A stretch of DNA of 46,805 nucleotides, taken from NCBI RefSeq assembly GCF_002081825.1, contig NZ_MUKU01000041.1, positions 1-46,805 on the forward strand, in the 5' to 3' direction. The DNA is from Chromobacterium haemolyticum. Lineage in GTDB: Bacteria > Pseudomonadota > Gammaproteobacteria > Burkholderiales > Chromobacteriaceae. Each line of letters opens with the position of its first letter. Position 1 is the first letter of the stretch. Below, piece after piece: positions 7,466-46,805 of the stretch. Below the pieces are notes generated by a model that saw nothing but the letters and a program-made list of their open reading frames with translations, ran no database searches and had not been told where the DNA came from. The position numbers were made by a program, and so were the translations under genes.

Positions 7466-7977
7466 TTCTGCTGGTGCTGTTGTGGCAGTTTTCCATGCTG
7501 TCGCTGGTGGCGGTGGGCGGCGCCAATGTGCTGATACCCGAGCTGCAGCGCCTGGTAGTGGAGCAGGGCTGGATGAACGCGCGCGAGTTCGCCGCGCTGT
7601 TCGCCATCGCTCAGGCCGCGCCCGGCCCCAATGTGTTGGTAGTCTGTCTGATCGGCTGGCAGGTGGCCGGGGTGCCGGGCGCGCTGGTCAGCATGGTGGG
7701 TATCTGCGGCCCGTCGTCGGTACTCAGTTTTTACGTGGCGCGCTGGTGGCAGCGTTATCAGCAGGCGCCGTTGACCCGGGCAATCCAGCGGGGACTGGCG
7801 CCGCTGACCATAGGGCTGGTGGCGGCCAGCGCCTGGCTGTTGAGCCAGGCGGCCAATGCCGACGCGGGCGCCTGGCTACTGTGCGGCGCGGTGGCGCTGA
7901 CGGCGTGGCGCACTGCGATCAATCCCTTGTGGCTATTGTCGGCCGGCGCTTTGCTAGGCGGTTTGGGGTTGCTCTAG
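7462..7977 (+). CDS. Chromate transporter, short-chain ChrA subunit 2
   Basis: Second short-chain CHR subunit, 171 residues. Its start codon overlaps the stop of the first subunit (ATGA at 7462-7465) with AAGGAGG just upstream. The N-terminal FSMLSLVAVGGANVLIPELQRL and the AIAQAAPGPNVLVVCLIGWQ motif mirror the first subunit with inverted topology expected, as is known for paired short CHR proteins. It is strongly hydrophobic throughout. It ends at TAG 7975-7977, immediately followed by a 48-bp repeat remnant. Confidence 0.88.
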   Translation: MILLVLLWQFSMLSLVAVGGANVLIPELQRLVVEQGWMNAREFAALFAIAQAAPGPNVLVVCLIGWQVAGVPGALVSMVGICGPSSVLSFYVARWWQRYQQAPLTRAIQRGLAPLTIGLVAASAWLLSQAANADAGAWLLCGAVALTAWRTAINPLWLLSAGALLGGLGLL

Positions 7978-8025
7978 GATTGCGTTCAAAGTCTCGCTTT
8001 AGTTAGCGAGATTGTGAACAGGCTC
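7978..8025. mobile_element. 48-bp remnant of the IS5-like miniature element family
   Basis: Starts directly after the chrA stop codon. Its ends are inverted: GATTGCGTTCAAAGTCTCGC on the left, and the reverse complement of the right end reads GAGCCTGTTCACAATCTCGC. Both resemble the ends of the larger elements at 33083, 37767 and 46241. Only the two ends are left, meeting at TTTAGTTA, so it looks like an internal-deletion derivative. It can fold as a hairpin. Confidence 0.6.
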
Positions 8026-32967: not shown

Positions 32968-33079
32968 GAGCGGCTAACAAAACCACGCAGAGAAGCTGAG
33001 CCAAGGCGCGCCGACGCAGGCAGTACGAGTCGTACGACAAGGAGGCGCAATGCAGGATCAGGGGTTTTGTTCGCGGGTC
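32968..33079. mobile_element. 112-bp miniature inverted-repeat element with TTA duplication
   Basis: Ends are inverted: GAGCGGCTAACAAAACC on the left and, read inward from the right, GACCCGCGAACAAAACC. It is flanked by TTA at 32965-32967 and TTA at 33080-33082. It contains an inner palindrome GTACGAGTCGTAC and no open frame. Compact, non-coding, with 3-bp TNA duplication, it fits a MITE mobilised by an IS5-group transposase. It directly abuts the next element. Confidence 0.75.
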
Positions 33080-33082
33080 TTA

Positions 33083-33282
33083 GAGCCTGTTTACGATCTC
33101 GCGAGCTAAGGCGACACAAGGCGAGACAAGGCGAGACAAGGCGAGACAAGGCGAGACAAGGCGAGACAAGGCGAGACAAGGCGAAAACGGCTGAGAAAGC
33201 GGAATGTACACGTGGTACATGAGCATTTCGACGAGGTTTTCAACGCCGTATCGCCGACGCGCAGTAGATCGTAAACAGGTTC
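33083..33282. mobile_element. 200-bp IS5-like miniature element carrying a 10-bp tandem array
   Basis: Left end GAGCCTGTTTACGATC; right end is its near-perfect inverse, GATCGTAAACAGGTTC. Flanked by TTA (33080-33082) and TTA (33283-33285). The left end differs by one base from the end of the insertion sequence at 46683. It contains no gene. The right-hand TTA is the yaaA stop codon read from the other strand. Its interior is clearly related to the elements at 37767 and 46241. Confidence 0.85.
33101..33184 (+). repeat. Tandem 10-bp repeat (GCGAGACAAG), about 8 copies
   Basis: Six identical units at 33121-33180, preceded by two variants (GCGAGCTAAG, GCGACACAAG) and followed by a partial GCGA. 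The sister elements at 37767 and 46241 have only about two degenerate units at the same place, so the array expanded inside this copy. Confidence 0.95.
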
Positions 33283-34056
33283 TTAGGGTAGGTCGCGGCG
33301 GAATACCCAGGTGAGTTCGCTGGAGGCCGCCGAATCGAAGGCGTAACCGGCGCTGTCGAAGTGCTTGAGCTGCTCCGGCTGGCTGACCTGATGCAGCGCG
33401 GCCCAGCGCGCCATCATGCCGCGCGCGCGTTTGGCGTAGAAGCTGATGATTTTGTACTGGCCGTTCTTGCGGTCCTGGAACACTGGGGTGATCAGGCTGG
33501 CGTTGAGCTTGGTCGGCTTCACCGCCTTGAAGTATTCCTCCGAGGCCAGGTTCACCAGTACCGGGTCTTTTCTTTGCTCCAGCACGGCGTTCAACGCGTG
33601 GGTGACGGTGTCGCCCCAGAACTCGTACAAGTTTTTGCCGCGCGGGTTGTTCAGGCGGGTGCCCATCTCCAGCCGGTAGGGCTGCATCAGGTCCAGCGGC
33701 CGCAGCGTGCCGTAGAGGCCGGACAGAATGCGCAAATGGTTTTGCAGATAGCTCATCTGTCCCGGCTCCAGGCTGGCGGCGTTCAGGCCTTCGTAGACGT
33801 CGCCCTTGAAGGCCAGCACCGCCTGTTTGGCGTTGGCCGGGCTGAACGGCGCTTGCCAATCGTGGTAGCGGCCCACGTTCAATTGCGCCAGCGCGTCGCT
33901 GATGCTCATCAGCTTGCCGATTTCCAGCGGGCTCTTGGCGCGCAGTACCTGGATCAGCTCGGCGCTGTGGTGCAGAAAGTCCGGCTGGGTGTAGTGATTG
34001 GTGGCGGCGGGGGTGTCGAAGTCCAGCGTCTTGGCTGGGGAGATGACCATCAGCAT
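33283..34056 (-). CDS. yaaA: Peroxide stress protein YaaA (UPF0246/DUF328)
   Basis: 257 residues, as in E. coli YaaA (258), which lowers free iron and protects DNA during peroxide stress. It begins [28 protein letters not shown] and has [42 protein letters not shown], and [16 protein letters not shown], the most conserved blocks of the family. It ends at TAA exactly where a miniature element abuts, so the stop codon doubles as the target duplication. It is divergent from dtd. Confidence 0.95.
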
Positions 34057-34118
34057 GAGGCGAATCCTTATTGAGCAACCGCCATTGTACTGGACTGCGT
34101 CGGGCTTGGCCCGCCGTC

Positions 34119-34147
34119 GTGACCGGCGGCGCGCTTGGCTCTAGAAT
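34119..34147 (+). promoter_or_regulatory. Likely dtd promoter
   Basis: GTGACC (34119-34124), 17-bp spacer, TAGAAT (34142-34147), 45 bp before the dtd start codon. Confidence 0.55.
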
Positions 34148-34191
34148 GCAGGCCGGGATTTGAATCTATGATGGTTTGGCAAGGAGAGGAC

Positions 34192-34644
34192 ATGCGGGTA
34201 TTGGTGCAAAGGGTGAGGCAGGCTTCGGTGACGGTGGAGGGGCGCGTGACCGGGGAGATCGGTCCCGGCCTGCTGTTGCTGGTGGGCATTGAGGAGGAAG
34301 ACGGGGCGGAGGATATCGCTTGGCTGACGCGCAAGCTCAGCCAGTTGCGGATTTTCAACGATGAGGCCGGGGTCATGAACCGCTCGGTGCTGGATTGCGG
34401 AGGCGAGGTGTTGGCGGTCAGCCAGTTCACCTTGTTCGCCAGCACCAAGAAGGGGAACCGGCCCTCGTATTCGCGCGCGGCGCGGCCGGAGCGGTCTAGT
34501 CCCTTGTTCGATCAGTTTGTCGCCGCGGTGGCGCAGACCTTGGGCAAGCCGGTGCCCACCGGCGTGTTCGGCGCGGACATGCAGGTGGCGTTGGTCAACG
34601 ATGGTCCGGTGACGATCTGGCTGGACAGCAAGACGATGGAGTAA
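34192..34644 (+). CDS. dtd: D-aminoacyl-tRNA deacylase
   Basis: Removes D-amino acids (and glycine from tRNA-Ala) mischarged to tRNA. 150 residues. The start [17 protein letters not shown] (34192) follows AAGGAGAGGA. The catalytic signature [17 protein letters not shown] is at residues 78-94, and the Gly-cisPro chirality motif is in [11 protein letters not shown] at the C-terminus. It is 3 bp from the following FUSC-like gene, so they share a transcript. Confidence 0.96.
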
Positions 34645-34647
34645 ACG

Positions 34648-35727
34648 ATGGAAGGCAGCCGTTGGCGGTCCTGGCGCATTCTATTGACGCCGTATTATCT
34701 GAACCTGTACGCCCGGCAGGCGCATGTGCTGCGGGTGGCCGCGGCGTTTTTGGTGGGTTTGGCCTTGAACCTGCTGTTCGAGATACCGCATGGCAGCTGG
34801 ATGCTGGTGACCATTCTGATCGTGCTGGGCAGCGTGCCGCACTGGGGCGGGGTGAGGCGCAAGGCCTTGCAGCGCATGGGCGGCTCTTTGCTGGGGGCGG
34901 CGGCCGGCCTGGTGGCCATGGCCTTGTACCGCCATTCGCCGCTGTCCTGCTATCTGTGGATGACGGCGCTGGTGATGCTCAGCGCCTGGTTCGCGCTGGG
35001 CAAGGGCGAGTATCTGGCGCTGCTGGTGGGGTTGACCATGGTGATTGTCGCCGGCCTGGGCAACGAGCCGGTGGAGGCCGCGCTGTGGCGCGGCTTCAAT
35101 GTGCTGGCCGGTTCCCTGCTGGGCTTGGTGGCCGCCGGCCTGTTCCCTTTGCGGGCGATAGACAGCTGGCGTTTTTTGCTGGCGGACAATGTGCGCGAAG
35201 CGGCCACCCTGTACAGCAAGATCGCGCGGCGGCGCGAGGTGGACGCCGGCTTGGCGCTGGAGCGTTTCAACAGCCGTTTGATCCGGATGCGGGCCTTGGT
35301 GGCGGCGGCGGTGCAGGAGTCCGGCCTGCCCGCGGCGGGTTTCGACGTCATCCAGCGGCGTCAGCGCGCGCTGTGCAGCCTGCTGGACCGTATGGGCGAG
35401 GTGGCCCAGGACACGCCAGCCCTGAGCGATGGCGCTGAACAACGCCGCGCCATCGTGCGCACGCTGATGCGCGCCGCTCACGGAATGCGCTTCAATCAGC
35501 CGGCGATGCTGGCGGAGGTGCTGAGCGAGGCGGTCAGTCCGCTGGCGCTGGACAAGCCCTCGTATTGCCACTGGCTGACCGCGGAGTTCAATCTGGTCGC
35601 CGAGCATTTGCGCGAGGATTTGGCGCTGCTGCTGCCCTGCCTGATGCAGGTGCCGCCGCCCAGCCGCGGGGTGCTGCTGATGGTGTGGCACTGGCTGAGC
35701 AGCGCCAGCCAGGGGCGCAGCCGCTAG
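34648..35727 (+). CDS. FUSC-like integral membrane protein (fusaric acid resistance family)
   Basis: 359 residues. About six hydrophobic helices occupy the first 180 residues (VLRVAAAFLVGLALNLLF, GSWMLVTILIVLGSVPHWGGVRRKALQRMGGSLLGAAAGLVAMAL, LALLVGLTMVIVAGLGNEP, GFNVLAGSLLGLVAAGLFPLRA), followed by a long, mostly helical soluble C-terminus. The WGGVRRKALQRMGGSLLGAAAG block resembles the FUSC motif (RxxGTxxG). Family members are putative aromatic-acid or drug exporters; the substrate here is unknown. Translation is likely coupled to dtd. Confidence 0.78.
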   Translation: MEGSRWRSWRILLTPYYLNLYARQAHVLRVAAAFLVGLALNLLFEIPHGSWMLVTILIVLGSVPHWGGVRRKALQRMGGSLLGAAAGLVAMALYRHSPLSCYLWMTALVMLSAWFALGKGEYLALLVGLTMVIVAGLGNEPVEAALWRGFNVLAGSLLGLVAAGLFPLRAIDSWRFLLADNVREAATLYSKIARRREVDAGLALERFNSRLIRMRALVAAAVQESGLPAAGFDVIQRRQRALCSLLDRMGEVAQDTPALSDGAEQRRAIVRTLMRAAHGMRFNQPAMLAEVLSEAVSPLALDKPSYCHWLTAEFNLVAEHLREDLALLLPCLMQVPPPSRGVLLMVWHWLSSASQGRSR

Positions 35728-35733
35728 CGGCGG

Positions 35734-35771
35734 GCAAGAAAAAGCCAGGGCTCGCCCTGGCTTTTTCTTGC
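35734..35771. terminator. Bidirectional terminator between FUSC-like gene and mltD
   Basis: Perfect 17-bp stem (35734-35750 with 35755-35771) around a CTCG loop. The A- and T-rich stem ends give a U-run in both directions, fitting two convergent genes. Confidence 0.92.
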
Positions 35772-35782
35772 GGCCCAAGCCC

Positions 35783-37594
35783 TTACAGGCCCTGGATGCG
35801 CACTTTCTGGCCCGGCTGCAGCCGGGTCAACTGGCGGGAGTCGTTCCAGCGCTGGATGTCGTTGTGATTGACGCCGAAGCGGCGGGCGATGCTGAACAGG
35901 GTGTCGCCACGCTGCACCACGTATTCCGCCGGCACGCTGCCGGTGGCGCGCTGGTTGATCTGCAGGCCGCTGACTTTCAGCAAGGCGTCTTGCTGAGCCT
36001 GGCTGGCGCGGCTGTCCGCCAGCAGGGTCACGCTCTTGTCCAGGGTTTTGTTGACGTTCAGCACCTGGCCGACCAGAACGGTGTTGGAATCCAGCTGATT
36101 GGCCGTTTTCAAATCGTCCAGACTAAGGTTGAAGCGACGGGCGACGCTGTACAGGGTGTCGCCTGCGGCCACGGTGTAATTGCCGTCGGCGTCGGCCGTG
36201 GCTGTTGTCGCGGGCGCGGCCGCCACGAGGACGGTTTTGGCTGGGGCCGGCGGGGCTTCCGGCGCTGCCGCCAGGACAGGAGCGGGCTGGCCGGAGGCCG
36301 GCGGCGTCTGAACCTGGGCGACGGGGGTGGCTTGCGGGACGGCTTGGGCCGAGGCGACCATCACCGCCGGCGCGGCGCGCGGCGTTTCCGCCTGCGCCAA
36401 CAGGGTGGCGCTGTCGCCGCTTTCCGGCAAGGCGGTGTCGGTGGCGTCCAGCGGACGGATGTCGCGCTGATCCTTGCTCATCGCCACCAGCACCGGCTGG
36501 CCGGCCTTGAGCGAGCTGCTGCTCAGATTGTTGGCGCTCATCAGTTGACCGGCGCTCATGCCGTGCTCGCTGGCGATCAGGCTGACGTTGGCGTCCGCGG
36601 GCGGAGTGTAGACTTCCCAAGTGAGCAGCGGCTTGTCCCACTTGGCCAGATTGGCCTGGAACTTGTCGGCCTTGGCCGCCGGGATCAGCATCTGGCGGCC
36701 GTTTTTGTGCGCGTATACCGGCAGGTTGAAGGCCGGGTTCAGTTCTTTGAATTCCCCGATGGACACGCCGGCCAGCTTGGCGGCGATGTCGATATTCATG
36801 TGCTTGCCGGTGGAAACCGCGACGAAATAAGGCTTGTTGGGGAATTTGTCCAGGCGCACGCCGAACTTGGCCGGATCGTTGAGGATGTTGCGCACCGCCA
36901 GCAACTTAGGCGCGTAGTTGCGCGTTTCGTTGGGCATGCGAATGTTTTCGTAAGTCACTTCCTGACCGCTGGCCTGCAGCCGGGCGATGGCGCGGGAGAC
37001 GTTGCCCTCGCCCCAGTTGTAGGCGGCCAGCGCGATGTTCCAGTCGCCAAACTGTCCGTACAGGTTTTCCAGGTAGTCCAGCGCGGCGCGGGTGGCTTCC
37101 ATCACGTCGCGGCGGCCGTCGTACCACCAGGTCTGTTCCAGACCGTAGTGGCGGCCGGTGGCCGGCATGAACTGCCACAGACCGGAGGCGCCGACATGGG
37201 ATTTCGCGGTGGGAACGAAGGCGCTTTCCACCAGCGGCAACAGCGCCAGCTCGGTGGGCATGCCGCGGCGCTCCACCTCGTTCATGATGTGAAACAGATA
37301 TTTTCTACTGCGGTCCAGCGTGCGGCGGAAGTATTCCGGCTTGCTGGCATAAAAGCGTTCCTGGCGGCGTACGATGTCCGCGTTCACTTCCGGCAGTTGG
37401 AAGCCTTCGCGCGCGCGCTCCCAGACGTTGTCGCCGTTGCGAAGCAGGCTGGAGTTCAGCAGCATCATGTCCAGGCCGGCGGCCAGGCCCTCGTCCACGC
37501 CGACGGATTGGCGAAACGCCCCGTCCGCATGCGCGGCGGAGGCAAATAAAAAAACAAATGACAGCGAAAGTGCCAACGGGGTGAAGCGATTCAT
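35783..37594 (-). CDS. mltD: Membrane-bound lytic murein transglycosylase D with LysM domains
   Basis: Cleaves peptidoglycan glycan strands. 603 residues: signal peptide (residues 1-23, FVFLFASAAHA), an SLT catalytic domain with the glutamate in LALLPLVESAFVPTAKS (about residue 120), GASGLWQFMPATGRHYGLE and LAAYNWGEGNVSRAI. It is followed by an Ala/Pro-rich linker (about 400-480) and two clear LysM repeats (YTVAAGDTLYSVARRFNLS and YVVQRGDTLFSIARRFGVN). A degenerate LysM lies before the linker. No lipobox cysteine follows the signal peptide, unlike E. coli MltD, so membrane anchoring may differ. Confidence 0.93.
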   Translation of the reverse strand: MNRFTPLALSLSFVFLFASAAHADGAFRQSVGVDEGLAAGLDMMLLNSSLLRNGDNVWERAREGFQLPEVNADIVRRQERFYASKPEYFRRTLDRSRKYLFHIMNEVERRGMPTELALLPLVESAFVPTAKSHVGASGLWQFMPATGRHYGLEQTWWYDGRRDVMEATRAALDYLENLYGQFGDWNIALAAYNWGEGNVSRAIARLQASGQEVTYENIRMPNETRNYAPKLLAVRNILNDPAKFGVRLDKFPNKPYFVAVSTGKHMNIDIAAKLAGVSIGEFKELNPAFNLPVYAHKNGRQMLIPAAKADKFQANLAKWDKPLLTWEVYTPPADANVSLIASEHGMSAGQLMSANNLSSSSLKAGQPVLVAMSKDQRDIRPLDATDTALPESGDSATLLAQAETPRAAPAVMVASAQAVPQATPVAQVQTPPASGQPAPVLAAAPEAPPAPAKTVLVAAAPATTATADADGNYTVAAGDTLYSVARRFNLSLDDLKTANQLDSNTVLVGQVLNVNKTLDKSVTLLADSRASQAQQDALLKVSGLQINQRATGSVPAEYVVQRGDTLFSIARRFGVNHNDIQRWNDSRQLTRLQPGQKVRIQGL

Positions 37595-37766
37595 TTGGCG
37601 GGCCCGGAATTCTGATTTCGGCTGATGCTAAACAGCCAACATAGGGGTGTCAACCAAAAAACCAAATAACTTCATGTGCTTTGCTGACATATAGGCCATA
37701 CAGACTGTCCTGTGCCAGTTATTTTTAACAGTGGCGATCAGGATTCAGTTCCTTGTCATGGTTTCA

Positions 37767-37908
37767 GCGCTTGTTCACGGCCCGCTGAGCGCCGGCGATG
37801 TGGCCTTGAAAACCCCTTTGAAACACTGATGGACAGCGACGTGCTTTCCGTTTTCTCAGTCGTTTTCGCCTTGTTTCGCCTTAACTCGCGAGATCGTGAA
37901 CAAATCCC
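37767..37908. mobile_element. 142-bp IS5-like miniature element
   Basis: Flanked by TCA at 37764-37766 and TCA at 37909-37911. Left end GCGCTTGTTCACGG; right end, read inward, GGGATTTGTTCACGATC. The interior matches the elements at 33083 and 46241 in order (GCCGGCGATG, TTGAAA, TTTTCTCAG, TTTCGCCTT, CTCGCGAGATCGTGAAC). The right-hand TCA is the gloB TGA stop read on the other strand. No coding capacity. The rest of 37595-37766 is the mltD upstream region, where no strong promoter was recognised. Confidence 0.75.
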
Positions 37909-38673
37909 TCAGAAGCGATTTTTCCACTCGCGCAACGCGGCAAAGACTTCGACAACATCATTAAGAGCTTGGCCGCTCCAGTGCACGACGGACTGACGCA
38001 CCGCCGGCTCATGCGCTCTCAGGAAAGGGTTGCTGGCGCGCTCCAGGCTGATGGTGGAGGGTAGGGTGGGCTGGTTCTGTTCGCGCAATTTCAGGTCCCG
38101 GCTCATGCGGATAGCCAACACCGGGTTGCCGGGCTCCACCGTCAGCGCAAAGCGTAGATTCGCCACGGTGTACTCATGAGCCGGGTAGACCTTGGTGGCG
38201 TTCGGTAGCGCGGCCAGTTTGGTCAGCGAATCGTGCATTTGCCGCGGCGTGCCTTCGAACAGCCGACCACAGCCCGCGCCGAACAGGGTGTCGCCGCAAA
38301 ACAGCGCGTCGTCGATCACGTAGGCCAGGTGGTTCAGCGTGTGGCCCGGAACTTCCAGCACCGCGGCCGCGCCGAAGGAGAGTTCGACGCGAGCCCCGTC
38401 CATCACCGGGCGGGAGACCAAGGCGATGTCGGCCGGGCCGTAGACGGCGGCGTCCCGCCAGCGCGAGGACAGCTCGGCCACGCCGCCGATATGGTCGGCG
38501 TGGTGGTGGGTGATCAGGATGGCTTCCAGCTGAAGCCCTTCCCGCTCAAGGAAGGCGAAGACCGGCGCGGCCTCGCCCGGGTCCACCACGACAGCGCGGC
38601 CGCTGTGATGCAAAACCCAGATATAATTGTCACTGAAGGCCCCTACCGGGCTGACGGTGAATTTGGCTGGCAT
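37909..38673 (-). CDS. gloB: Hydroxyacylglutathione hydrolase (glyoxalase II)
   Basis: Metallo-beta-lactamase-fold thioesterase that hydrolyses S-lactoylglutathione, finishing methylglyoxal detoxification. 254 residues. The metal site is THHHADHIGGVAEL (about residues 54-67), with the further metal ligand HTLNHLAYV, FCGDTLFGAGCGRLFEG and PAHEYTVANLRFA. The C-terminal helical domain has NPFLRAHEPAVRQ. It is divergent from the yafS-like gene, the same arrangement as in E. coli. Confidence 0.96.
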   Translation of the reverse strand: MPAKFTVSPVGAFSDNYIWVLHHSGRAVVVDPGEAAPVFAFLEREGLQLEAILITHHHADHIGGVAELSSRWRDAAVYGPADIALVSRPVMDGARVELSFGAAAVLEVPGHTLNHLAYVIDDALFCGDTLFGAGCGRLFEGTPRQMHDSLTKLAALPNATKVYPAHEYTVANLRFALTVEPGNPVLAIRMSRDLKLREQNQPTLPSTISLERASNPFLRAHEPAVRQSVVHWSGQALNDVVEVFAALREWKNRF

Positions 38674-38686
38674 AAGGCTTCTCTCA

Positions 38687-39412
38687 ATGAAGAATTCGTT
38701 TAGCGACTGGCTGAGCTCCAGCGAATTGGGATGTTATCTGCTGGAGCGGGAGCAGGCTTATTTCGATCGCGCCGTCGCCGACGTGTTCGGCTTTCATGCG
38801 GTGCAGCTGGGGTTGCCGGAAGTCGACTTCCTGCGCGCCAACCGCATTCCCTGGCAGTGCCGCGTCGCGGATTCCGGGCCGGCGCAGATCCTGTGCGATC
38901 CGGAGCAACTGCCGTTCGAGAGTCGCAGCCTGGACCTGTTGGTGATGCCGCATGTGCTGGATTTTACCACTGTGCCGCATCAGGTACTGCGGGAAGCCGA
39001 GCGCGTGTTGATGCCGGAGGGCCGGTTGATCCTCACCGGCTTCAATCCGGTGTCGTTGTGGGGTGTGCGCAGGCTGATCCAGGGGCGCGAAAACTCGCCG
39101 TGGAGCGGCAACTTTCTGTCGCTGGTGCGCATCAAGGACTGGCTGACCCTGTTGGAGCTGGAGCCCGCGAGCGGCGGCTTCATGGGCTACGCGCCGCCGT
39201 TTTCCCGTTGCGACTGGGTGCAACGCTTCCGCTTCATGGAGCGGGCCGGGGACCGCTGGTGGCCGCTGGCCGCCGGCGTGTACGGCATTGAGGCGATCAA
39301 ACGCCAGCGCGGCATGCGTTTGATCCTGCCCAATTGGAAGCAGGCCAAGGCCAAAACCGGTCTGGCGGTGGCCGCCGGCAACGAGCGCCATCACAGCCAC
39401 AGGGAACCATGA
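38687..39412 (+). CDS. yafS: SAM-dependent methyltransferase (YafS-like)
   Basis: Class I methyltransferase of 241 residues; substrate unknown. The N-terminal part YLLEREQAYFDRAVADVFGFHAVQLGLPEVDFL is followed by CDPEQLPFESRSLDLLVMPHVLDFTTVPHQVLREAERVLMPEGRLILTGFNPVSLWGVRRL. That includes the acidic strand and post-motif loops of the fold, but motif I is poorly conserved. Position between gloB and rnhA matches E. coli yafS, which supports the symbol. Start at MKNSFSDWL (38687) is preferred, since the frame upstream overlaps gloB. Confidence 0.85.
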   Translation: MKNSFSDWLSSSELGCYLLEREQAYFDRAVADVFGFHAVQLGLPEVDFLRANRIPWQCRVADSGPAQILCDPEQLPFESRSLDLLVMPHVLDFTTVPHQVLREAERVLMPEGRLILTGFNPVSLWGVRRLIQGRENSPWSGNFLSLVRIKDWLTLLELEPASGGFMGYAPPFSRCDWVQRFRFMERAGDRWWPLAAGVYGIEAIKRQRGMRLILPNWKQAKAKTGLAVAAGNERHHSHREP

Positions 39413-39458
39413 GACAACACAGCAAGCGGGGCGCAAGCCCCGGCAATGACGAGACAGC

Positions 39459-39902
39459 ATGACGACTGAAGACAAGGTAGAGATGTATACCGACGGCGCC
39501 TGCAAGGGCAATCCGGGGCCGGGCGGATGGGGCGCTTTGCTGCGCTTCAAGGGCAAGGAAAAGGAAGTGTGCGGCGGCGAGGCGAACACCACCAACAACC
39601 GAATGGAGTTACTGGCCGTGATCAAGGGCCTGGCCACTTTGAACCGGCCCTGCCAGGTGGTGGTGTACACCGACTCCCAATATGTGCAAAAAGGCATTTC
39701 CGAGTGGATTCACGGCTGGAAAGCGCGGGGCTGGAAGACCGCGGCCAAGGAGCCGGTGAAGAACGCCGATCTGTGGCAGCAATTGGACGCCGAACGCAAC
39801 CGCCACCTGCACGTGGAGTGGCGCTGGGTTAAAGGCCACGCCGGCCATGAATTCAACGAACGGGCCGATCAGTTGGCCAACCGCGGCGTAGAGCTGGCCT
39901 GA
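39459..39902 (+). CDS. rnhA: Ribonuclease HI
   Basis: Degrades RNA in RNA-DNA hybrids. 147 residues. The four catalytic acidic residues and histidine are visible: D in [21 protein letters not shown] in [14 protein letters not shown] in [13 protein letters not shown], and H/D in [18 protein letters not shown]. The basic handle [20 protein letters not shown] is present, as in E. coli RNase HI. It is followed 70 bp later by dnaQ in the same direction; in E. coli the two are divergent. Confidence 0.97.
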
Positions 39903-39972
39903 CCCGGCCGCGCCCGCCCTTATTCAGGATTCAGAGCGGCGCCGCCGGCTGCGGCCGCCGCCAGGATAGCGC

Positions 39973-40692
39973 ATGAGACAAATCATTCTCGATACCGAAA
40001 CCACCGGTCTCGAACACGCCCAAGGCCATCGCATCATCGAATTCGCCGGCCTGGAAATGATCAACCGCAAGCTCACCGGCAAGCATCTGCATCTTTACAT
40101 CCATCCGGAGCGCGACATCGATCCGGACGCCCAGCGCGTGCACGGCATCTCTCTAGAGTTTCTGGAAGGCAAACCCAAGTTCCGCGAGGTGGCCGAGGAA
40201 ATGGCCGACTTCCTGCGCGACGCGGAGCTGATCATCCACAACGCGCCGTTTGACGTTGGCTTTCTCAACGCCGAATTCGAAAGAGTGGGCCTGCCGTCCA
40301 TCAAGAACCTGTGCGCCAATGTGATTGACACCCTGCGCGAGGCGCGCGACCAGTTCCCCGGCAAGCGCAATAGCCTGGACGCCTTGTGCGACCGCTTCGA
40401 GATCGACCGCTCCAACCGCACCTTGCACGGCGCGCTGGTGGACTGCGAACTGCTGTCCGAAGTCTATCTATGGATGACCCGCGGCCAGGAAAGCCTGGTG
40501 ATGGACATCGACGTCGATCTGCCAGGCGGCCAGCACGGCGCGATGGATTTCGAGCGCAAGCCGTTGATCGTCAAGCGCGCCAACGAGCAGGAACTGGCGG
40601 ATCATCAAACCTATTTGAACGATCTGGACAAATCGGTGAAGGGAACCTGCCTGTGGCGCAGTCTGGAGACGCCGGTCGGAGAGGGCGCGTGA
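39973..40692 (+). CDS. dnaQ: DNA polymerase III epsilon subunit (proofreading exonuclease)
   Basis: 3'-5' proofreading exonuclease of the replicase. 239 residues. Exo I is ILDTETTGLEHAQGHRIIEFA (residues 5-25), Exo II is HNAPFDVGFLNAEFERVG, and the HxAxxD motif is HGALVDCELLSEVYLWM. The C-terminal region carrying the clamp and alpha-subunit contacts is present (KRANEQELADHQTYLNDLDK). Its stop codon overlaps the GTG start of ispD by 4 bp (GTGA), so the two are translated together. Confidence 0.96.
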   Translation: MRQIILDTETTGLEHAQGHRIIEFAGLEMINRKLTGKHLHLYIHPERDIDPDAQRVHGISLEFLEGKPKFREVAEEMADFLRDAELIIHNAPFDVGFLNAEFERVGLPSIKNLCANVIDTLREARDQFPGKRNSLDALCDRFEIDRSNRTLHGALVDCELLSEVYLWMTRGQESLVMDIDVDLPGGQHGAMDFERKPLIVKRANEQELADHQTYLNDLDKSVKGTCLWRSLETPVGEGA

Positions 40693-41372
40693 GCCGCTAT
40701 CTGGCGCTGGTGCCGGCCGCCGGCCACGGCAGCCGCTTCGGCGCGCCCAGTCCCAAGCAATACCTGCAGCTGAACGGCAAGCCGCTGATGTGGCATACCC
40801 TGCAGGCCCTGGCCGCGGTGCCCGCCGTCGAGGCGGTGGCGGTGGTGATTTCCCCCTGCGACGAGTGGTTCGACGATTTCGACTGGGACATTCCCAAGCT
40901 GCAAGTGCTGCGCGTGGGCGGCGTCAGCCGCGCCGAAAGCGTGCGCAACGGCCTGGAGGCGCTGGACTGCGAGGCCGACGACTGGATCCTTGTGCACGAC
41001 GCCGCGCGCTGCTGCCTGACCGCGGACGCGGTGGAGCGGCTGCTGGCCGAGGTGGGCGACGATCCGGTGGGCGGCTTGCTGGCCCTGCCGGTGCCGGACA
41101 CCGTCAAGCGCGCCGACGTCGAACAGCGCGTGGCGGTCACCGTTTCGCGCGCCGGCCTGTGGCTGGCGCAAACCCCGCAGATGTTCCGCCACGGCAAATT
41201 GCGGGAGGCCCTGCAAGGCGGCGACTTGGCGGATGTGACCGACGAAGCCTCCGCGATAGAGCGCTGCGGCGGCAAGCCGCGGCTGGTGGAGGGCGACGCC
41301 CAGAATTTCAAAGTGACTTATCCGCGCGATCTGGCCTTGGCGCGCGCGGTGCTGTCGGCAAGAAAGGATTGA
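40689..41372 (+). CDS. ispD: 2-C-methyl-D-erythritol 4-phosphate cytidylyltransferase
   Basis: Third step of the MEP isoprenoid pathway. 227 residues from a GTG start at 40689 that overlaps the dnaQ stop. The N-terminal [26 protein letters not shown] is the nucleotide-binding loop; [20 protein letters not shown] and [13 protein letters not shown] follow, and the C-terminus has [36 protein letters not shown]. No ATG fits; longer readings of this frame would run inside dnaQ. It is followed by ispF after 1 bp. Confidence 0.95.
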
Positions 41373-41373
41373 T

Positions 41374-41850
41374 ATGTTTCGAGTGGGACAGGGCTACGAC
41401 GTGCATCAGCTGGTGGCCGGCCGGCCGTTGATCCTGGGCGGCGTGCGTATTCCGCACGACAAGGGCTTGTTGGGCCACTCCGACGCCGACGCCTTGCTGC
41501 ACGCGATTACCGACGCGCTGCTGGGCGCGGCGGCGCTGGGCGATATCGGCCGTCACTTTCCGGACACCGATCCCGAGTTCAAGGGCGCCGACAGCCGCGC
41601 GCTGCTGCGCGAAGCGGCCAAGCGCGTGCGCGCCGCCGGCTGGCGACCGGTGAACGTGGACAGCACGCTGATTGCGCAGCAGCCCAAGCTGGCTCCGCAC
41701 ATCGACGCGATGCGCGCGGCCATCGCCGAAGACCTCGGCCTGGACTTCGGCGCGGTCAACGTCAAGGGCAAAACCAACGAGAAGCTGGGTTATTTGGGGC
41801 GTTGCGAGGCGATAGAGGCGCAAGCCGTCTGCCTGCTGACGTCCGTGTAA
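41374..41850 (+). CDS. ispF: 2-C-methyl-D-erythritol 2,4-cyclodiphosphate synthase
   Basis: Fifth step of the MEP pathway. 158 residues. Metal ligands lie in [11 protein letters not shown] (DxH at residues 8-10) and [37 protein letters not shown]. The C-terminal [28 protein letters not shown] is the diagnostic end of the family. It is almost fused to ispD (1-bp gap) and lies in a dnaQ-ispD-ispF unit. Confidence 0.97.
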
Positions 41851-41963
41851 AACTGCGCCGCGCTTCGCGGTTTGCGGCTCGCAATTGATGACAGGTGTCT
41901 GGCGGATCGCCCCGTGCCATAATCCGCCCGGCGCAACACCATCCAAACACAGGAGGCATTACC

Positions 41964-42623
41964 ATGTTGACTCAGGACCAACTGAAGCTTGCCGTGGCCA
42001 AGAAGGCCATTGAATTCGTGCCGGACGACAGCATCGTCGGCGTGGGCACCGGCAGCACCGTCAATCTGTTCATCGAAGAACTGGCCGCGATCAAGGGCCG
42101 CATCCGCGGCGCGGTGTCCAGCTCCGACGCCTCCACCGCCCGTCTCAAAGCCCACCACATCCCGGTGTTCGACCTGAACGAAGTGGACGCTTTGCCGGTA
42201 TACATCGACGGCGCCGATGAAATCAACCACCACCTGCACATGATCAAGGGAGGCGGCGCCGCGCTGACCCGCGAGAAGATCGTCGCCAGCGTGGCCGAGC
42301 AGTTCATCTGCATCGCCGACGAAACCAAATACGTCGCCATGTTGGGCGGCTTCCCGCTGCCCATCGAAGTCATCCCGATGGCGCGCAGCTATGTGGCGCG
42401 CGAACTGGTCAAGCTCGGCGGCCACCCGGAGCTGCGCCAGGGCGTGACCACCGACAACGGCAATGTGATTCTGGACGTGCACGGCTTGAAGATTCAGAAG
42501 CCGGTGGAACTGGAAGAAATCATCAACCACCTGGCCGGCGTGGTTACCTGCGGCCTGTTCGCGCGCCGTCGCGCCGATGTGCTGGTGTTGGGTCGTCAGA
42601 GCGGCGTCGAAGAAATCCGTTAA
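41964..42623 (+). CDS. rpiA: Ribose-5-phosphate isomerase A
   Basis: Interconverts ribose 5-phosphate and ribulose 5-phosphate in the pentose phosphate pathway. 219 residues. Start at [19 protein letters not shown] (41964) is preceded by AGGAGG. Conserved motifs are [56 protein letters not shown], and [22 protein letters not shown] at 41918-41923 could be a -10. The stop codon is followed by what may be a degraded repeat. Confidence 0.97.
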
Positions 42624-42674
42624 CGGCCAGCTCAAAGTCCTGACGGCGCGTACCTGCCTCTGAACAGGCTTGTG
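42624..42674. repeat. Possible degenerate remnant of the miniature element family
   Basis: Directly after the rpiA TAA, GGCCAGCTCAAAGTCC resembles the left end of the element at 46241 (GAGCCAGGTCAAAGTCC), and CTGAACAGGCTTG near 42660 resembles a right end (GAACAGGCTC). Only the ends are similar. Confidence 0.3.
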
Positions 42675-42765
42675 CCGCCCGGACGCGGGCAGATGAATTG
42701 TCACATCGTCGTCATCTGTCCGCATTAACATAGCGTTTTTTGACAGGTTTTGGTTTGGGGCAGAC

Positions 42766-43467
42766 ATGGCAGAGCATATTTCCAAACAGTTCGATATGGA
42801 GCTGGAAACCATCCGCACCCGCGTCCTGCAGATGGGCGGACTGGTGGAGCAGCAGATTTTGTCCGCGATGGAAGCCCTGCTGGCAGGCGACATTGACAAG
42901 CTGGACAAGGTGATTGCCGAAGACGCGCTGGTCAACGCGATGGAAGTCACCATCGACGACGACTGCCTGCACATCATCGCCCGCCGTCAGCCGGCCGCCA
43001 GCGATCTGCGCATCGTGTTCACCGTGATCAAGGTGATCACGGATCTGGAGCGCATCGGCGACGAAGCCAAGAAGATTGCGCGCATGGGCAAGACCATCTA
43101 TCAGTCGGAGCGCTATCAGGTGCCGCGCTTCCGCGAAATCGAGAAAATGGCGGACTCGGCGCTGGGCATGTTGCGCCGCGCGCTGGACGCCTTCGCCCGC
43201 CTGGACACCAGCGCCGCCTTGGAACTGGCCGAGGCCGACCAGGAGCTGGACGAGGATTTCGCCGCGGAGCTGCGCCAGCTGATCACCTTCATGATGGAAG
43301 ACCCGCGCACCATCAGCATGTCCATCGACACCCTGTTCATCTCCAAGGCGATAGAGCGCATCGGCGATCACGCCACCAATATTTCCGAATATGTGGTCTA
43401 CCTGGTCAAGGGCAAGGACATCCGTCACACCACGCTGGAAACCAAGAAGCGAGAAACCCTGGGCTGA
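42766..43467 (+). CDS. phoU: Phosphate-specific transport system accessory protein PhoU
   Basis: Negative regulator that links the Pst phosphate transporter to the PhoR/PhoB signalling pair. 233 residues of two three-helix repeats: ISKQFDMELETIRTRVLQMGGLVEQQI at the N-terminus and TSAALELAEADQELDEDFAAELRQL in the second half. The characteristic metal-binding E/D-rich segments LERIGDEAKKIARM and IERIGDHATNISEYVVYLVKG (RIGD motif) occur in each half. pst and phoB genes are not in the window. No clear Pho box was found upstream. Confidence 0.95.
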   Translation: MAEHISKQFDMELETIRTRVLQMGGLVEQQILSAMEALLAGDIDKLDKVIAEDALVNAMEVTIDDDCLHIIARRQPAASDLRIVFTVIKVITDLERIGDEAKKIARMGKTIYQSERYQVPRFREIEKMADSALGMLRRALDAFARLDTSAALELAEADQELDEDFAAELRQLITFMMEDPRTISMSIDTLFISKAIERIGDHATNISEYVVYLVKGKDIRHTTLETKKRETLG

Positions 43468-43653
43468 GCCCGGCAGCGCTGGCCACGGCGACTTGACATG
43501 ACGGTTTGCCTAAAATGGCGGTAACATTCGGTGTTGCCGCCATTGTTGCGTCCGGCGTCCGTGCCAGTCCCCCGGCGATCCAACCTGATGATGAATCCCC
43601 CCGTTTCCGCCGGCGCAGCCGCGCGGGCGCGGGCCTTGATAAAGAGAGAAGGG

Positions 43654-45153
43654 GTGTCTTTGACACTGACCACGCCCCCAAACAACGTGCTCGCCACCAT
43701 CGATATGGGCTCCAACAGCTTCCGCCTGCAAGTGTCGCGGGTGGTGGACGACCAGCTGTACGCGCTGGACGTGATGAAGGAGACCGTGCGCTTGGGCGCG
43801 GGCCTGACCGCCGACAAACAGCTGGACCAAGAAACCCAGGACAAGGCGCTGGCCTGCCTCGCCCGCTTTGGCGAGCGTCTGCGCGGCTTCACCCCGGCCC
43901 AAGTGCGCGCGGTGGGCACCAACACCCTGCGCGTGGCCAAGAACGCGGCGGATTTCATCGCCAAGGCCGAGCCGCTGCTGGGTTTCCCCATTGAAGTGAT
44001 CGCCGGCCGCGAAGAAGCGCGGCTGATCTATCTGGGCGCCGCCCATTCGCTGCCGGACACTAAGGAGCGGCGCATGGTGGTGGACATCGGCGGCGGATCC
44101 ACCGAGTTCATCATCGGCAGCCATTACAAGGCTTTGGTCACGGAAAGCCTGCCCTTGGGCTGCGTTAGCTACACATTGCGTTATTTCGGCAACGGCAAGC
44201 TGACTCAGGCCAATTTCCAGGATGCGATTCTGGCCGCGCGCAATGAGATCCAGCGCATCGCCCATCAATACCAGCGCGAGGAATGGCAGTTGGCGGTGGG
44301 CACCTCCGGTACCGCGCGTTCCTTGCGCGACGTGCTGGAAATCAACGACTGGAGCACGGCCGACATCACCCTGTCCGGCATGGAAAAGCTCAAGGCGCAG
44401 CTGATCCGCCAGGGCAGCATAGACGCCATCGACGTCAACGGCCTCAAGGCCGACCGCGCGCCGGTGCTGGCAGGTGGCCTCGCCATCATGATCGCGGTGT
44501 TTCAGGAGTTGGCCATCGACAAGATGACGGTGGCCGAAGGCGCTCTGCGCGACGGCGTGCTATACGATCTATTAGGCCGCCAGCGTGAAAAGGACATGCG
44601 CGATACCACCGTCACCCAATTCAAACGCCGCTACCATGTGGACACCGGCCAGGCCGAGCGTGTCACCACGCTGGCCGAGCGTCTGTACCGGATGGTGGCC
44701 GGCGAAGATGTGGACCAGGCCATGCTCAAGCGCCTGCTGTGGGCCGCCAAGCTGCACGAGATCGGACTGACCATCTCGCACACCGCTTATCACAAGCACT
44801 CTTCCTACATCCTGCAGCACGCCGACATGCCCGGCTTCTCCAAGCGTGAGCAGGCCACGCTGGCCGCCATCGTGCTGGGCCACCGCGGCGACATGGGCAA
44901 GATGCGGCAATACATGGAAGACTCCAGCCTGTGGCAGGCGGTGGTGTCGCTGCGGCTGGCGGTTTTGTTCCATCGCAGCCGCAACAGCATTGCACTGCCG
45001 GAAATGCTGGACCTGCGCCAGCACGCCACCGGCTTTGCGCTGACCCTGAACAAGGTCTGGCTGAAAGGCAGCCCGCTGACCGCCAGCGGCTTCAAACAGG
45101 AGATTGGCCAGTGGAAGAACGTCGGCTTCGTGCTAGATATCGTGCAAGTGTGA
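43654..45153 (+). CDS. ppx: Exopolyphosphatase
   Basis: Hydrolyses terminal phosphates of polyphosphate and, in the related GppA, pppGpp. 499 residues from GTG at 43654, which follows GAGAGAAGG; the frame continues upstream to ATG codons at 43588 and 43531 without ribosome-binding sites. The ASKHA-fold motifs are LATIDMGSNSFRLQVSRV, RAVGTNTLRVAKNA, MVVDIGGGSTEFIIG and VGTSGTARSL. The C-terminal HD-like helical part includes KLHEIGLTISHTAYHKHSSYIL. It lies next to phoU, so phosphate sensing and polyphosphate use are together. Confidence 0.92.
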   Translation: MSLTLTTPPNNVLATIDMGSNSFRLQVSRVVDDQLYALDVMKETVRLGAGLTADKQLDQETQDKALACLARFGERLRGFTPAQVRAVGTNTLRVAKNAADFIAKAEPLLGFPIEVIAGREEARLIYLGAAHSLPDTKERRMVVDIGGGSTEFIIGSHYKALVTESLPLGCVSYTLRYFGNGKLTQANFQDAILAARNEIQRIAHQYQREEWQLAVGTSGTARSLRDVLEINDWSTADITLSGMEKLKAQLIRQGSIDAIDVNGLKADRAPVLAGGLAIMIAVFQELAIDKMTVAEGALRDGVLYDLLGRQREKDMRDTTVTQFKRRYHVDTGQAERVTTLAERLYRMVAGEDVDQAMLKRLLWAAKLHEIGLTISHTAYHKHSSYILQHADMPGFSKREQATLAAIVLGHRGDMGKMRQYMEDSSLWQAVVSLRLAVLFHRSRNSIALPEMLDLRQHATGFALTLNKVWLKGSPLTASGFKQEIGQWKNVGFVLDIVQV

Positions 45154-45160
45154 CCCGCCC

Positions 45161-46240
45161 ATGCGCCATGCCACGCTGAAAAAACGCATTCCCACGCTGG
45201 GCGAAGCGCCCGGCACCCTGCTGTCGGTGGGAGAGGCGAAATTGCCGGAAGCCTCGATCTCGCTGTTCGAATACGGCCCGGAGCAATTGCAGGAAACCGT
45301 GTTCCAGACCGTGTCGGAAGGTTTGGCCCACCAGCCCGGCAGCGGCGTGCTGTGGCTCAACGTCTACGGCCTGCACCAGCCCGAGGTGATGCGTGCCATC
45401 GGTCAGCGCTTTGGCCTGCACTCCTTGGTACTGGAAGACATCATGAACGCGCGGCAAAGGCCCAAAGTGGAGGACTACGGCGATTACCTGTTCGTCGCCA
45501 GCCGGGTGTTCGACTATCACCAGCACAGTGAAAACGGAGCGGGCCGGCTGTTGTCCGATCAGATCTACTTGGTCATCGGCCGTCGCTTTGTCCTGAGTTT
45601 CCAGGAGCGCCCCACCGGCGTGTTCGAGGAAGTGCGGGAACGGCTGCGCCGCGGACGCGGCCTGCTGCGTCACAAGGAGGCGGACTACCTGGGCTATTCC
45701 TTGCTGGACGCGATGATAGACGACTATTTCGGCGTGCTCACCGAGTTCAACGAAAGAGTGGAACGTATGGACAGCATGCTGCTGCGCGGCCGCGACCAGG
45801 GCGTGTTGATGCAGATCCAGCGGCTGAAGCGGGATTGTCTGAAGCTTCGCCGCGCACTGATGCCGATGCGGGAAATGCTGATCTCGCTGAACCGCGGCGA
45901 ACACGGCTTCTTCAAGCCGGAAACTCTGGTCTATCTGCGCGACGCCTACGATCACACCATGCACGTGATCGAATCCCTGGAAATGTCGCGCGAGATGGTG
46001 GGCGATATGTTGGACCTTTACCTGTCCACTCAATCTCACCGCCTCAACCTGCAAATGCGGGTGCTTACCGTGTTGACCATGATCTTCATGCCGCTGACGC
46101 TGATCGCCGGCATCTACGGCATGAATTTCGAATACATGCCGGAGCTGAAATGGCACTACGGCTACCACCTGGTGCTGGTGGCGATGCTGGGCATCGCCAG
46201 CGGGCTGGGGTGGCTGTTCTGGAAGCGACGCTGGCTTTAA
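45161..46240 (+). CDS. corA: Magnesium/cobalt transporter CorA family
   Basis: Pentameric divalent-cation channel of the inner membrane, 359 residues. A large cytoplasmic domain (FHSLVLEDIMN-like segment: FGLHSLVLEDIMNARQRPKVEDYGDYLF) precedes a long helix and two C-terminal membrane segments. The first ends in the signature YGMNFEYMPEL (GMN); the second is LVLVAMLGIASGLGWLFWK, and the protein ends in basic KRRWL. It may carry Mg2+, Co2+ or Ni2+. It starts 7 bp after ppx. Its stop codon TAA directly abuts a miniature element. Confidence 0.95.
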   Translation: MRHATLKKRIPTLGEAPGTLLSVGEAKLPEASISLFEYGPEQLQETVFQTVSEGLAHQPGSGVLWLNVYGLHQPEVMRAIGQRFGLHSLVLEDIMNARQRPKVEDYGDYLFVASRVFDYHQHSENGAGRLLSDQIYLVIGRRFVLSFQERPTGVFEEVRERLRRGRGLLRHKEADYLGYSLLDAMIDDYFGVLTEFNERVERMDSMLLRGRDQGVLMQIQRLKRDCLKLRRALMPMREMLISLNRGEHGFFKPETLVYLRDAYDHTMHVIESLEMSREMVGDMLDLYLSTQSHRLNLQMRVLTVLTMIFMPLTLIAGIYGMNFEYMPELKWHYGYHLVLVAMLGIASGLGWLFWKRRWL

Positions 46241-46380
46241 GAGCCAGGTCAAAGTCCGCTGCGTGTCGGCAATATGGCGTTGAAACCGGCTTCGAAATGC
46301 TCATATACCGTGTGTACACTCCTCTTTCTCTGCCGTGTTTGTTTTGTCTCGCTCTTGCTCGCGAGACTTCGAACAGGCTC
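46241..46380. mobile_element. 140-bp IS5-like miniature element
   Basis: Left end GAGCCAGGTCAAAGTC, right end read inward GAGCCTGTTCGAAGTC. Flanks are TAA (the corA stop, 46238-46240) and TAG. The interior aligns with the reverse complement of the element at 33083: TGTCGGCAATATGGCGTTGA versus CGTCGGCGATACGGCGTTGA, TCGAAATGCTCAT in both, TGTACA and GTCTCGC repeats in both, and CTCGCGAGA before the right end. Non-coding. The following 46381-46679 shows no convincing gene. Confidence 0.8.
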
Positions 46381-46682
46381 TAGAGAGTTGCCGCGCGTTG
46401 GTAGAAACACTGTGCGATGAGTGCCTGCGTCAGAGTTCCATGTTCCGTGCGCACGGTGTTTTCTGTCGCAACGCTCCGAGCTTGTAGCATGGATGATGAA
46501 CGCGGGCCTATAAGTTTTGCCGGCAGCCAACAAGCCGCAGGGGTAGTCCTGCCTCCCGTTGCCCTTTTCCCTTCCTGAAAACCTCATTTCCTCGGTTTCG
46601 AGACCTCCGGCCGATCTGCTGCGCGTCGTGAGACGTCGCATAGTGGTTCCGCTTTCTCTGTGGTCTCCCTGATCTCGCCTTA

Positions 46683-46805
46683 GAGCCTGTTCACGATCTT
46701 TTCGTCCTGAGATAATTGCCGAATGCGAAGAAGCCATTATCCAAGCGACGTAAGTCGTGAACAGTTCGAACAGATCAGACCGCTATTGGAAAGCCTGCGC
46801 AAGAA
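46683..46805 (+). mobile_element. Left end of an IS5-family insertion sequence (continues beyond the window)
   Basis: Preceded by TTA (46680-46682), a probable TNA target duplication. The terminal repeat begins GAGCCTGTTCACGATC, which differs by one base from the end of the 200-bp miniature element at 33083. A transposase start codon follows 40 bp inside. The right end is outside the window, so length and completeness are unknown. Confidence 0.85.
46723..46805 (+). CDS. IS5-family transposase, N-terminal fragment
   Basis: The visible 27 codons read MRRSHYPSDVSREQFEQI then RPLLESLRK. This is the typical N-terminal helix (YPSDxxxxQWxxIxPLLP pattern) of IS5-family DDE transposases. The catalytic domain lies past the window edge. 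It is the plausible trans-acting source for the miniature elements with matching ends. Confidence is high for the family and low for the subgroup, although the TNA flank suggests the IS1031/IS427-type groups. Confidence 0.85.
   Translation, partial: MRRSHYPSDVSREQFEQIRPLLESLRK

Follow-up and report, generated by a model that had tools for sequence, protein, structure and literature searches.

Why do copies of a miniature mobile element end exactly where genes end? The question is raised by a stretch of 46,805 nucleotides from Chromobacterium haemolyticum (assembly GCF_002081825.1, contig NZ_MUKU01000041.1, positions 1 to 46,805 of the forward strand; hereafter the window), in which copies of a miniature inverted-repeat transposable element (MITE), here named MITE-A, adjoin the stop codons of yaaA, gloB and corA. 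A preliminary description of the window had suggested that the stop codon doubles as the target-site duplication and that gene ends are tolerated preferentially, or even targeted, by the element. The observation at stop sites was largely right and extends beyond the window: when three samples were pooled, a stop codon was the target in 202 of 397 classed MITE-A copies. A further point, beyond the preliminary description, is that the copies at exact stops lie predominantly in one orientation, antiparallel to the gene (167:35). The sites in the window are the following.

33080..33082, TTA, left target duplication, common to MITE-A and to a copy of a second miniature family, MITE-B
33083..33282, plus strand, MITE-A copy of 200 bp, right end towards yaaA and orientation opposite to yaaA, longer than usual through a 10-bp tandem repeat inside it
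33283..33285, minus strand, TTA, right target duplication, which is the yaaA stop codon TAA
33283..34056, minus strand, yaaA (NCBIfam)
37764..37766, TCA, distal target duplication
37767..37908, minus strand, diverged MITE-A copy of 142 bp, orientation same as gloB
37909..37911, minus strand, TCA, gene-side target duplication, which is the gloB stop codon TGA
37909..38673, minus strand, gloB (NCBIfam)
45161..46240, plus strand, corA (NCBIfam)
46238..46240, plus strand, TAA, the corA stop codon, flanking the element on the gene side; TAG at 46381-46383 on the far side makes the duplication imperfect
46241..46380, minus strand, MITE-A copy of 140 bp, orientation opposite to corA

At yaaA and gloB the gene-side triplet serves as the stop, as claimed earlier, and identical triplets stand on both sides of the element. 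At corA the copy does lie directly after the TAA, but the duplication is imperfect. All three full MITE-A copies in the window are at stops, a higher share than the roughly one half seen in general; the yaaA and corA copies have the majority direction and the gloB copy the minority one.

It had also been argued that a TNA target includes TAA and TGA, and that insertion there regenerates the stop and leaves the protein unchanged. Empty sites in relatives, sought in 9, 7 and 8 of 19 genomes of the genus for the three genes, bear this out. In the relative G004 gloB ends with TAA followed by AACCATGACAA, and in the C. haemolyticum genome under study (the own genome) the order is TGA, element, TGA, AACCATGACAA; a copy is present at the same gloB stop in G012, G001 and G005. 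Without the element, yaaA ends at the same residue in G001, G004 and G005, and so does corA in G012, G004 and G005, the last of which has an element-like sequence about 30 nt past the corA stop. As relatives without the element have the same C-terminus, the stop is older than the insertion.

Copies were counted in the own genome, in named relatives and in G012, a genome in one contig. The best-scoring copies were used, from the best 150 candidates per genome, and copy numbers are lower bounds. The own-genome set comes from 120 of the 121 stretches planned, the last copy being taken from a locus read earlier; for the named relatives one exact 21-base pattern was used, among the matches listed (107 copies kept, 17 duplicates dropped), and for G012 80 of 94 stretches (145 copies). 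One own copy without TNA was dropped before counting, as were two copies each from the named relatives and G012 that had no TNA or lay too near an end. Sites were reconstructed by removing each element and one duplicate, and were then classed by position relative to genes, for which a custom-written, frame-specific Markov model with these same stretches as training data was used in place of curated annotation. Stop and intergenic sites together are referred to as tolerated sites. Between samples, 32 gene clusters recur, and the intergenic sites still include copies common to samples.

Own-genome copies fell into 71 stop, 68 intergenic, 6 coding and 4 gene-edge sites, and 1 without TNA. The share at stops was similar in the own genome (71/149), the named relatives (58/105) and G012 (73/143). 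As background, only 409 of the 5127 tolerated TNA sites of the own genome (8 %) are stops. When restricted to tolerated sites, 71 of 139 own copies were at stops compared to 24.0 expected from 5-mer matched sites and 31.6 from a 9-position target matrix; the corresponding values were 58 of 97 compared to 20.7 in the named relatives and 73 of 127 compared to 29.9 in G012. Pooled, the target-weighted null gave about 82 expected stops for the 202 seen. Summed over samples, the ratio of observed to expected was 2.46 at stops (202 vs 82.2), 1.17 at sites 1-60 nt downstream of stops (67 vs 57.4) and 0.42 at the remaining sites (94 vs 223), which agrees with the suggested preferential tolerance at gene ends. 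Few copies lay within genes or well away from the 3' end of a gene. The stop ratio was still 2.2 when the matrices were widened to 15 flanking bases, and bootstrapping of the own genome and named relatives gave a 2.5-fold (2.1-3.2) excess at stops, stops being 2.1-fold (1.4-3.0) above the sites 1-60 nt downstream.

The comparison with background TNA sites, for which the preliminary description had taken lack of an excess as refutation, thus gave an excess in all three samples. Small-sample chance was rejected, since all three samples agree, and sequence context alone was rejected as the source by the 5-mer, 9-position and widened matrix nulls. Occupied stops in the own genome were TAA in 53 cases and TGA in 18, although TGA is the commoner stop (333 TGA, 213 TAA and 50 TAG in the own-genome stretches), as would be expected from the target preference. 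The stop excess is therefore composed of a match to the target, of tolerance of gene 3' ends and of a residue beyond both.

Orientation was assessed with the strand starting with the CTCGCGAGC end taken as the plus strand of MITE-A. The elements were antiparallel to the gene at 62 of 71 exact stops in the own genome, 45 of 58 in the named relatives and 60 of 73 in G012, so that in the favoured orientation the end reading GAACCTGTTTACGATCTGCTGCGC directly follows the stop. At sites 1-60 nt downstream the ratio was 26:41 (Fisher p 4e-11 against exact stops). Because the excess lies in one orientation, and only at the stops themselves, tolerance of 3' ends alone is insufficient to explain it. Counted per gene cluster, the bias was 123:27 with 3 mixed (p 8e-16, 153 clusters). 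In the element frame, intergenic duplications were symmetric (TAA 48, TTA 44, TCA 8, TGA 7; own genome and named relatives). Insertions one base ahead of the stop, at TTA with G or A as the next base, gave 8:4, and with n=12 are too few to judge.

Several possible sources of the bias were considered and rejected. A separate element subfamily at stops was not apparent, as ends and alignment columns showed no clear difference (lowest column p 0.0096, uncorrected). Spurious small genes are not responsible, since 105:22 clusters and 3 mixed remained for genes of at least 150 amino acids, and the bias holds whether the following gene is convergent (39:7) or in tandem (66:15). A codon-phase flank preference was rejected because favoured stops show none at position -4 when compared to background stops, and near flank sequence because element-frame matrices from intergenic sites predict a favoured share of 0.47-0.55. 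Genes with favoured copies had a coding score slightly above background (p 0.0007). A-poorness at coding-side position -20 of favoured stops (7 % vs 29 %) is unexplained. In three cases orthologous stops carry opposite-orientation copies in different genomes (loci L203/L421/L095, L223/L134/L120 and L265/L139), either through repeated hits on one stop or through inversion in place.

MITE-A is typically 140 bp long, with the left end GARCSTGTTYACGATCTCGCGAGC and the right end GCGCAGCAGATCGTRAACAGGYTC, and contains no transposase gene, the frames being at most about 47 codons in consensus-length copies. The own genome (5.29 Mb, 88 contigs) has at least 150 copies, all 150 scored candidates having matched. 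Matches were found in 14 of 19 genomes of the genus, five with at least 150 copies and nine with 1-9, and five had none; this split in copy number, five genomes against fourteen with 0-9, suggests a single expansion in one clade. Among the matches listed, the MITE-A core occurred in Chromobacterium alkanivorans, C. aquaticum and C. haemolyticum, with one match in Crenobacter intestini. Of 150 own copies, 96 had the same triplet on both flanks, and this triplet was always TNA (TTA 41, TAA 37, TGA 9, TCA 9); identical TNA on both sides was seen in 73 of 105 copies in the named relatives and 99 of 143 in G012. The preferred target is C-T(A/T)A-G, and no clear palindrome reaching past C-TNA-G was found. 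Where two MITE-A copies adjoin, they have a single TNA in common, and 10 of 11 such pairs are arranged head-to-tail.

The terminal inverted repeat GAGCCTGTTCACGATCT is common to the ends of MITE-A and to those of an insertion sequence (IS) of the own genome. The IS protein, of which the first 116 amino acids are readable at contig ends, matched Pfam DUF4096 over the cut-off and the NCBIfam IS5 model with 92 bits, compared to a cut-off of 110 set for the whole protein; DUF4096 is a domain of IS4/5-type transposases. MITE-A, itself non-autonomous, is most likely mobilised by an IS5-family transposase. There are 14 IS left ends in the own genome, many of them at contig ends, and IS copies have probably broken the assembly. 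None of the 14 left ends had an exact stop beside it; two stop-less open frames reach such an end. At least 5 of the left ends lay directly after a MITE-like end. Seven of the 9 right ends recognised among 22 scanned loci were examined: 2 were at the exact stop of a gene that points at the IS, 4 at a MITE-like end and 1 was intergenic. A third gene call terminating at an IS right end passes through a MITE and was left uncounted. A plasmid search with the IS end gave no match, and in 18 other genomes of the genus the end was not found within 2 mismatches.

MITE-B, with ends GAGCGGCTAACAAAAC and GTTTTGTTCGCGGGTC and likewise a TNA duplication, was at stops in 9 of 28 classed copies in the own genome and named relatives (orientation 7:2) and in 5 of 18 in G012 (4:1). 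The pooled orientation of 11:3 had a p value of 0.057, at least one site being common to both samples.

Our explanation for these observations is that MITE-A inserts at TNA targets, where stops are regenerated, and that the orientation excess may arise mostly because selection acts early at the 3' end of the mRNA, a view that we hold tentatively. The TNA target covers in-frame TAA and TGA, and the duplicated triplet rebuilds the stop and keeps the protein intact. The ribosome would then halt at the edge of a hairpin of 140 nt, and it could matter which strand is read out: the favoured strand is pyrimidine-rich with a predicted less stable fold, the other carries AAGG-type purine tracts, and copies in the other orientation may be lost soon after insertion. 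Such selection is favoured because the strands are unlike each other in composition and in the mean stability predicted for them (about -59 vs -52 kcal/mol), and because, in the parts of the sources considered, REP hairpins next to stops are reported to act on translation (PMC12306157) and ERIC reportedly acts in an orientation-dependent manner (PMC2229807). There is a tendency to stronger bias in older insertions, not significant (26:3 for those common to more than one set vs 97:24 for those in one set, p 0.29), and imperfect duplications similarly tend to a stronger bias than perfect ones (46:5 vs 121:30).

Several observations, however, weigh against selection at the mRNA level. With the widened matrices, the favoured orientation at stops had 112 copies, about four times the one-orientation prediction, and the other orientation was not depleted, 25 being seen compared to about 23-31 predicted. 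As the minority fits the prediction and the majority exceeds it about 4-fold, the stop excess and the orientation bias look like one phenomenon, in which one orientation seems to have been gained and not the other lost. The bias has no counterpart 1-20 nt downstream (11:23), though the RNA context is alike there, and it is present in young-looking copies (11:3 at a nearest-neighbour identity of at least 0.98). Age proxies had no clear effect on it, quartiles of nearest-neighbour identity giving 0.73-0.94 without a clear trend, and the coding score was alike for genes with favoured and other-orientation copies (p 0.40). The sites 1-60 nt downstream lean the opposite way (p 0.09).

That the bias is lacking just past the stop and is present in young-looking copies argues instead for oriented targeting, in which in-frame stops would be picked, with the right end towards the gene, either by the transposition machinery or by a host factor linked to translation or transcription termination, in a Tn7-like manner. 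It is possible that this is correct, though we consider it on the whole unlikely. The gain of one orientation is in its favour, as is the IS, which has the same ends and an interior unlike that of the MITE and adjoined the exact stop of a gene that points at it in 2 of 7 right ends examined and in none of 14 left ends; the IS counts are, however, small, apart from C-TNA-G no flank signal was found that separates stops from other TNA sites, and the genes hit, in 153 clusters, are unrelated. Between early selection on the mRNA and oriented targeting we lean to the former. It appears rather doubtful that a DNA transposition system places elements in a set orientation on in-frame stops of unrelated genes, with the reading frame or translation termination feeding into target choice.

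That the excess is merely the product of a TNA target and of tolerance of gene ends is an unlikely account: TNA does fit TAA and TGA, sites near 3' ends are favoured and target weighting lifts the expected stop share in the own genome from 8 % to about 23 %, but the observed stops are about 2.5 times the weighted expectation and the orientation opposes such an origin. New copies might also inherit their orientation by serial head-to-tail insertion beside an older element, as the adjoining pairs with their common TNA would allow, and a further element was found within 300 nt of 30 of 167 favoured stops and 1 of 35 others. Dropping those stops still left 137:34, and other filters 85:21 and 91:22, so that tandem arrays and neighbouring copies were rejected as the source and serial insertion is improbable. 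Selection for an open frame past the stop, giving a readthrough product, is very improbable: the favoured orientation leaves frame 0 open over a median of 38 codons and the other over 8, but a frame of at least 36 codons was kept no better at favoured stops than intergenically (83 % vs 81 % of copies, p 0.73).

Other features of the window concern the same families.

7978..8025, MITE-like remnant directly after the chrA stop TAG (7975-7977), followed by TAC; neither flank is TNA
32968..33079, plus strand, MITE-B copy flanked on either side by TTA and adjoining MITE-A in tandem
46683..46805, plus strand, left end of the IS5-type insertion sequence with the terminal repeat of MITE-A, interrupted by the contig end; TTA at 46680-46682

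The remnant at chrA, the product of which is supported by Pfam as a chromate transporter, had been counted among the stop-site insertions. It does start directly after the stop, but with a TAG stop and no TNA flank it stands outside the TNA argument, and it was not reported by the MITE profile at E 1e-4. The copy beside yaaA is enlarged from 140 to 200 bp by seven 10-bp units GGCGAGACAA at 33110-33179, the first with one difference, a repeat expansion likely to stem from replication slippage. In the outer and inner arms of the set A1 (42 copies), 5 of 31 predicted pairs had compensating changes on both sides, and the plus strand retains G-U where the opposite strand would have A-C; it seems that the hairpin is maintained as RNA or is re-matched through template switching. 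In the window, Rfam gave only two tRNAs over the gathering score and no RNA family matching the element.

Where the duplicated target is at the same time a stop codon, a genome may take up mobile elements by the hundred without much damage, which amounts to a simple rule. The one-sided orientation at exact stops, which is lost within a few bases downstream, links the placement of an element to the reading frame; this link has strong support and is as yet unexplained. The IS5 family includes subgroups, such as IS1031, with TNA duplications and mobilised MITEs. MITE-A resembles these in its terminal repeats shared with an IS that has a DUF4096 match at the start of its protein, in its 3-bp TNA duplication and in having no transposase of its own, and differs in having half of its copies on stops with an orientation bias. 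Correia elements have a TA target duplication, and identity with them was rejected because that of MITE-A is TNA. The titles and abstracts listed for MITEs, IS5, Chromobacterium, stop-adjacent targets and Correia elements contained no report of a stop-equal duplication with orientation bias, a weak negative as their coverage is partial.

Among better known systems, REP hairpins next to stops are reported, in the part of PMC12306157 considered, to act on translation. REP sequences are shorter, whereas in MITE-A the target duplication itself is the stop and carries the TNA signature of transposition. ERIC of Yersinia is a MITE-like repeat for which orientation is described as decisive in its effect on transcripts upstream, with ribosome-induced exposure of a cleavage site; its sequence is unlike that of MITE-A, and a stop-equal duplication is not mentioned for it in the passage concerned (PMC2229807). 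In QMITE2 of Coxiella a MITE lies at a gene 3' end, with the stop just ahead of the element in one strain, according to the section considered of PMC5896051; this concerns one gene and arose through an indel, while in MITE-A the stop is provided through target duplication. Tn7 at glmS, as outlined in part of PMC2918618, likewise inserts harmlessly at a gene end in a set orientation, but there one gene is read by a dedicated protein, whereas MITE-A is found at the ends of unrelated genes.

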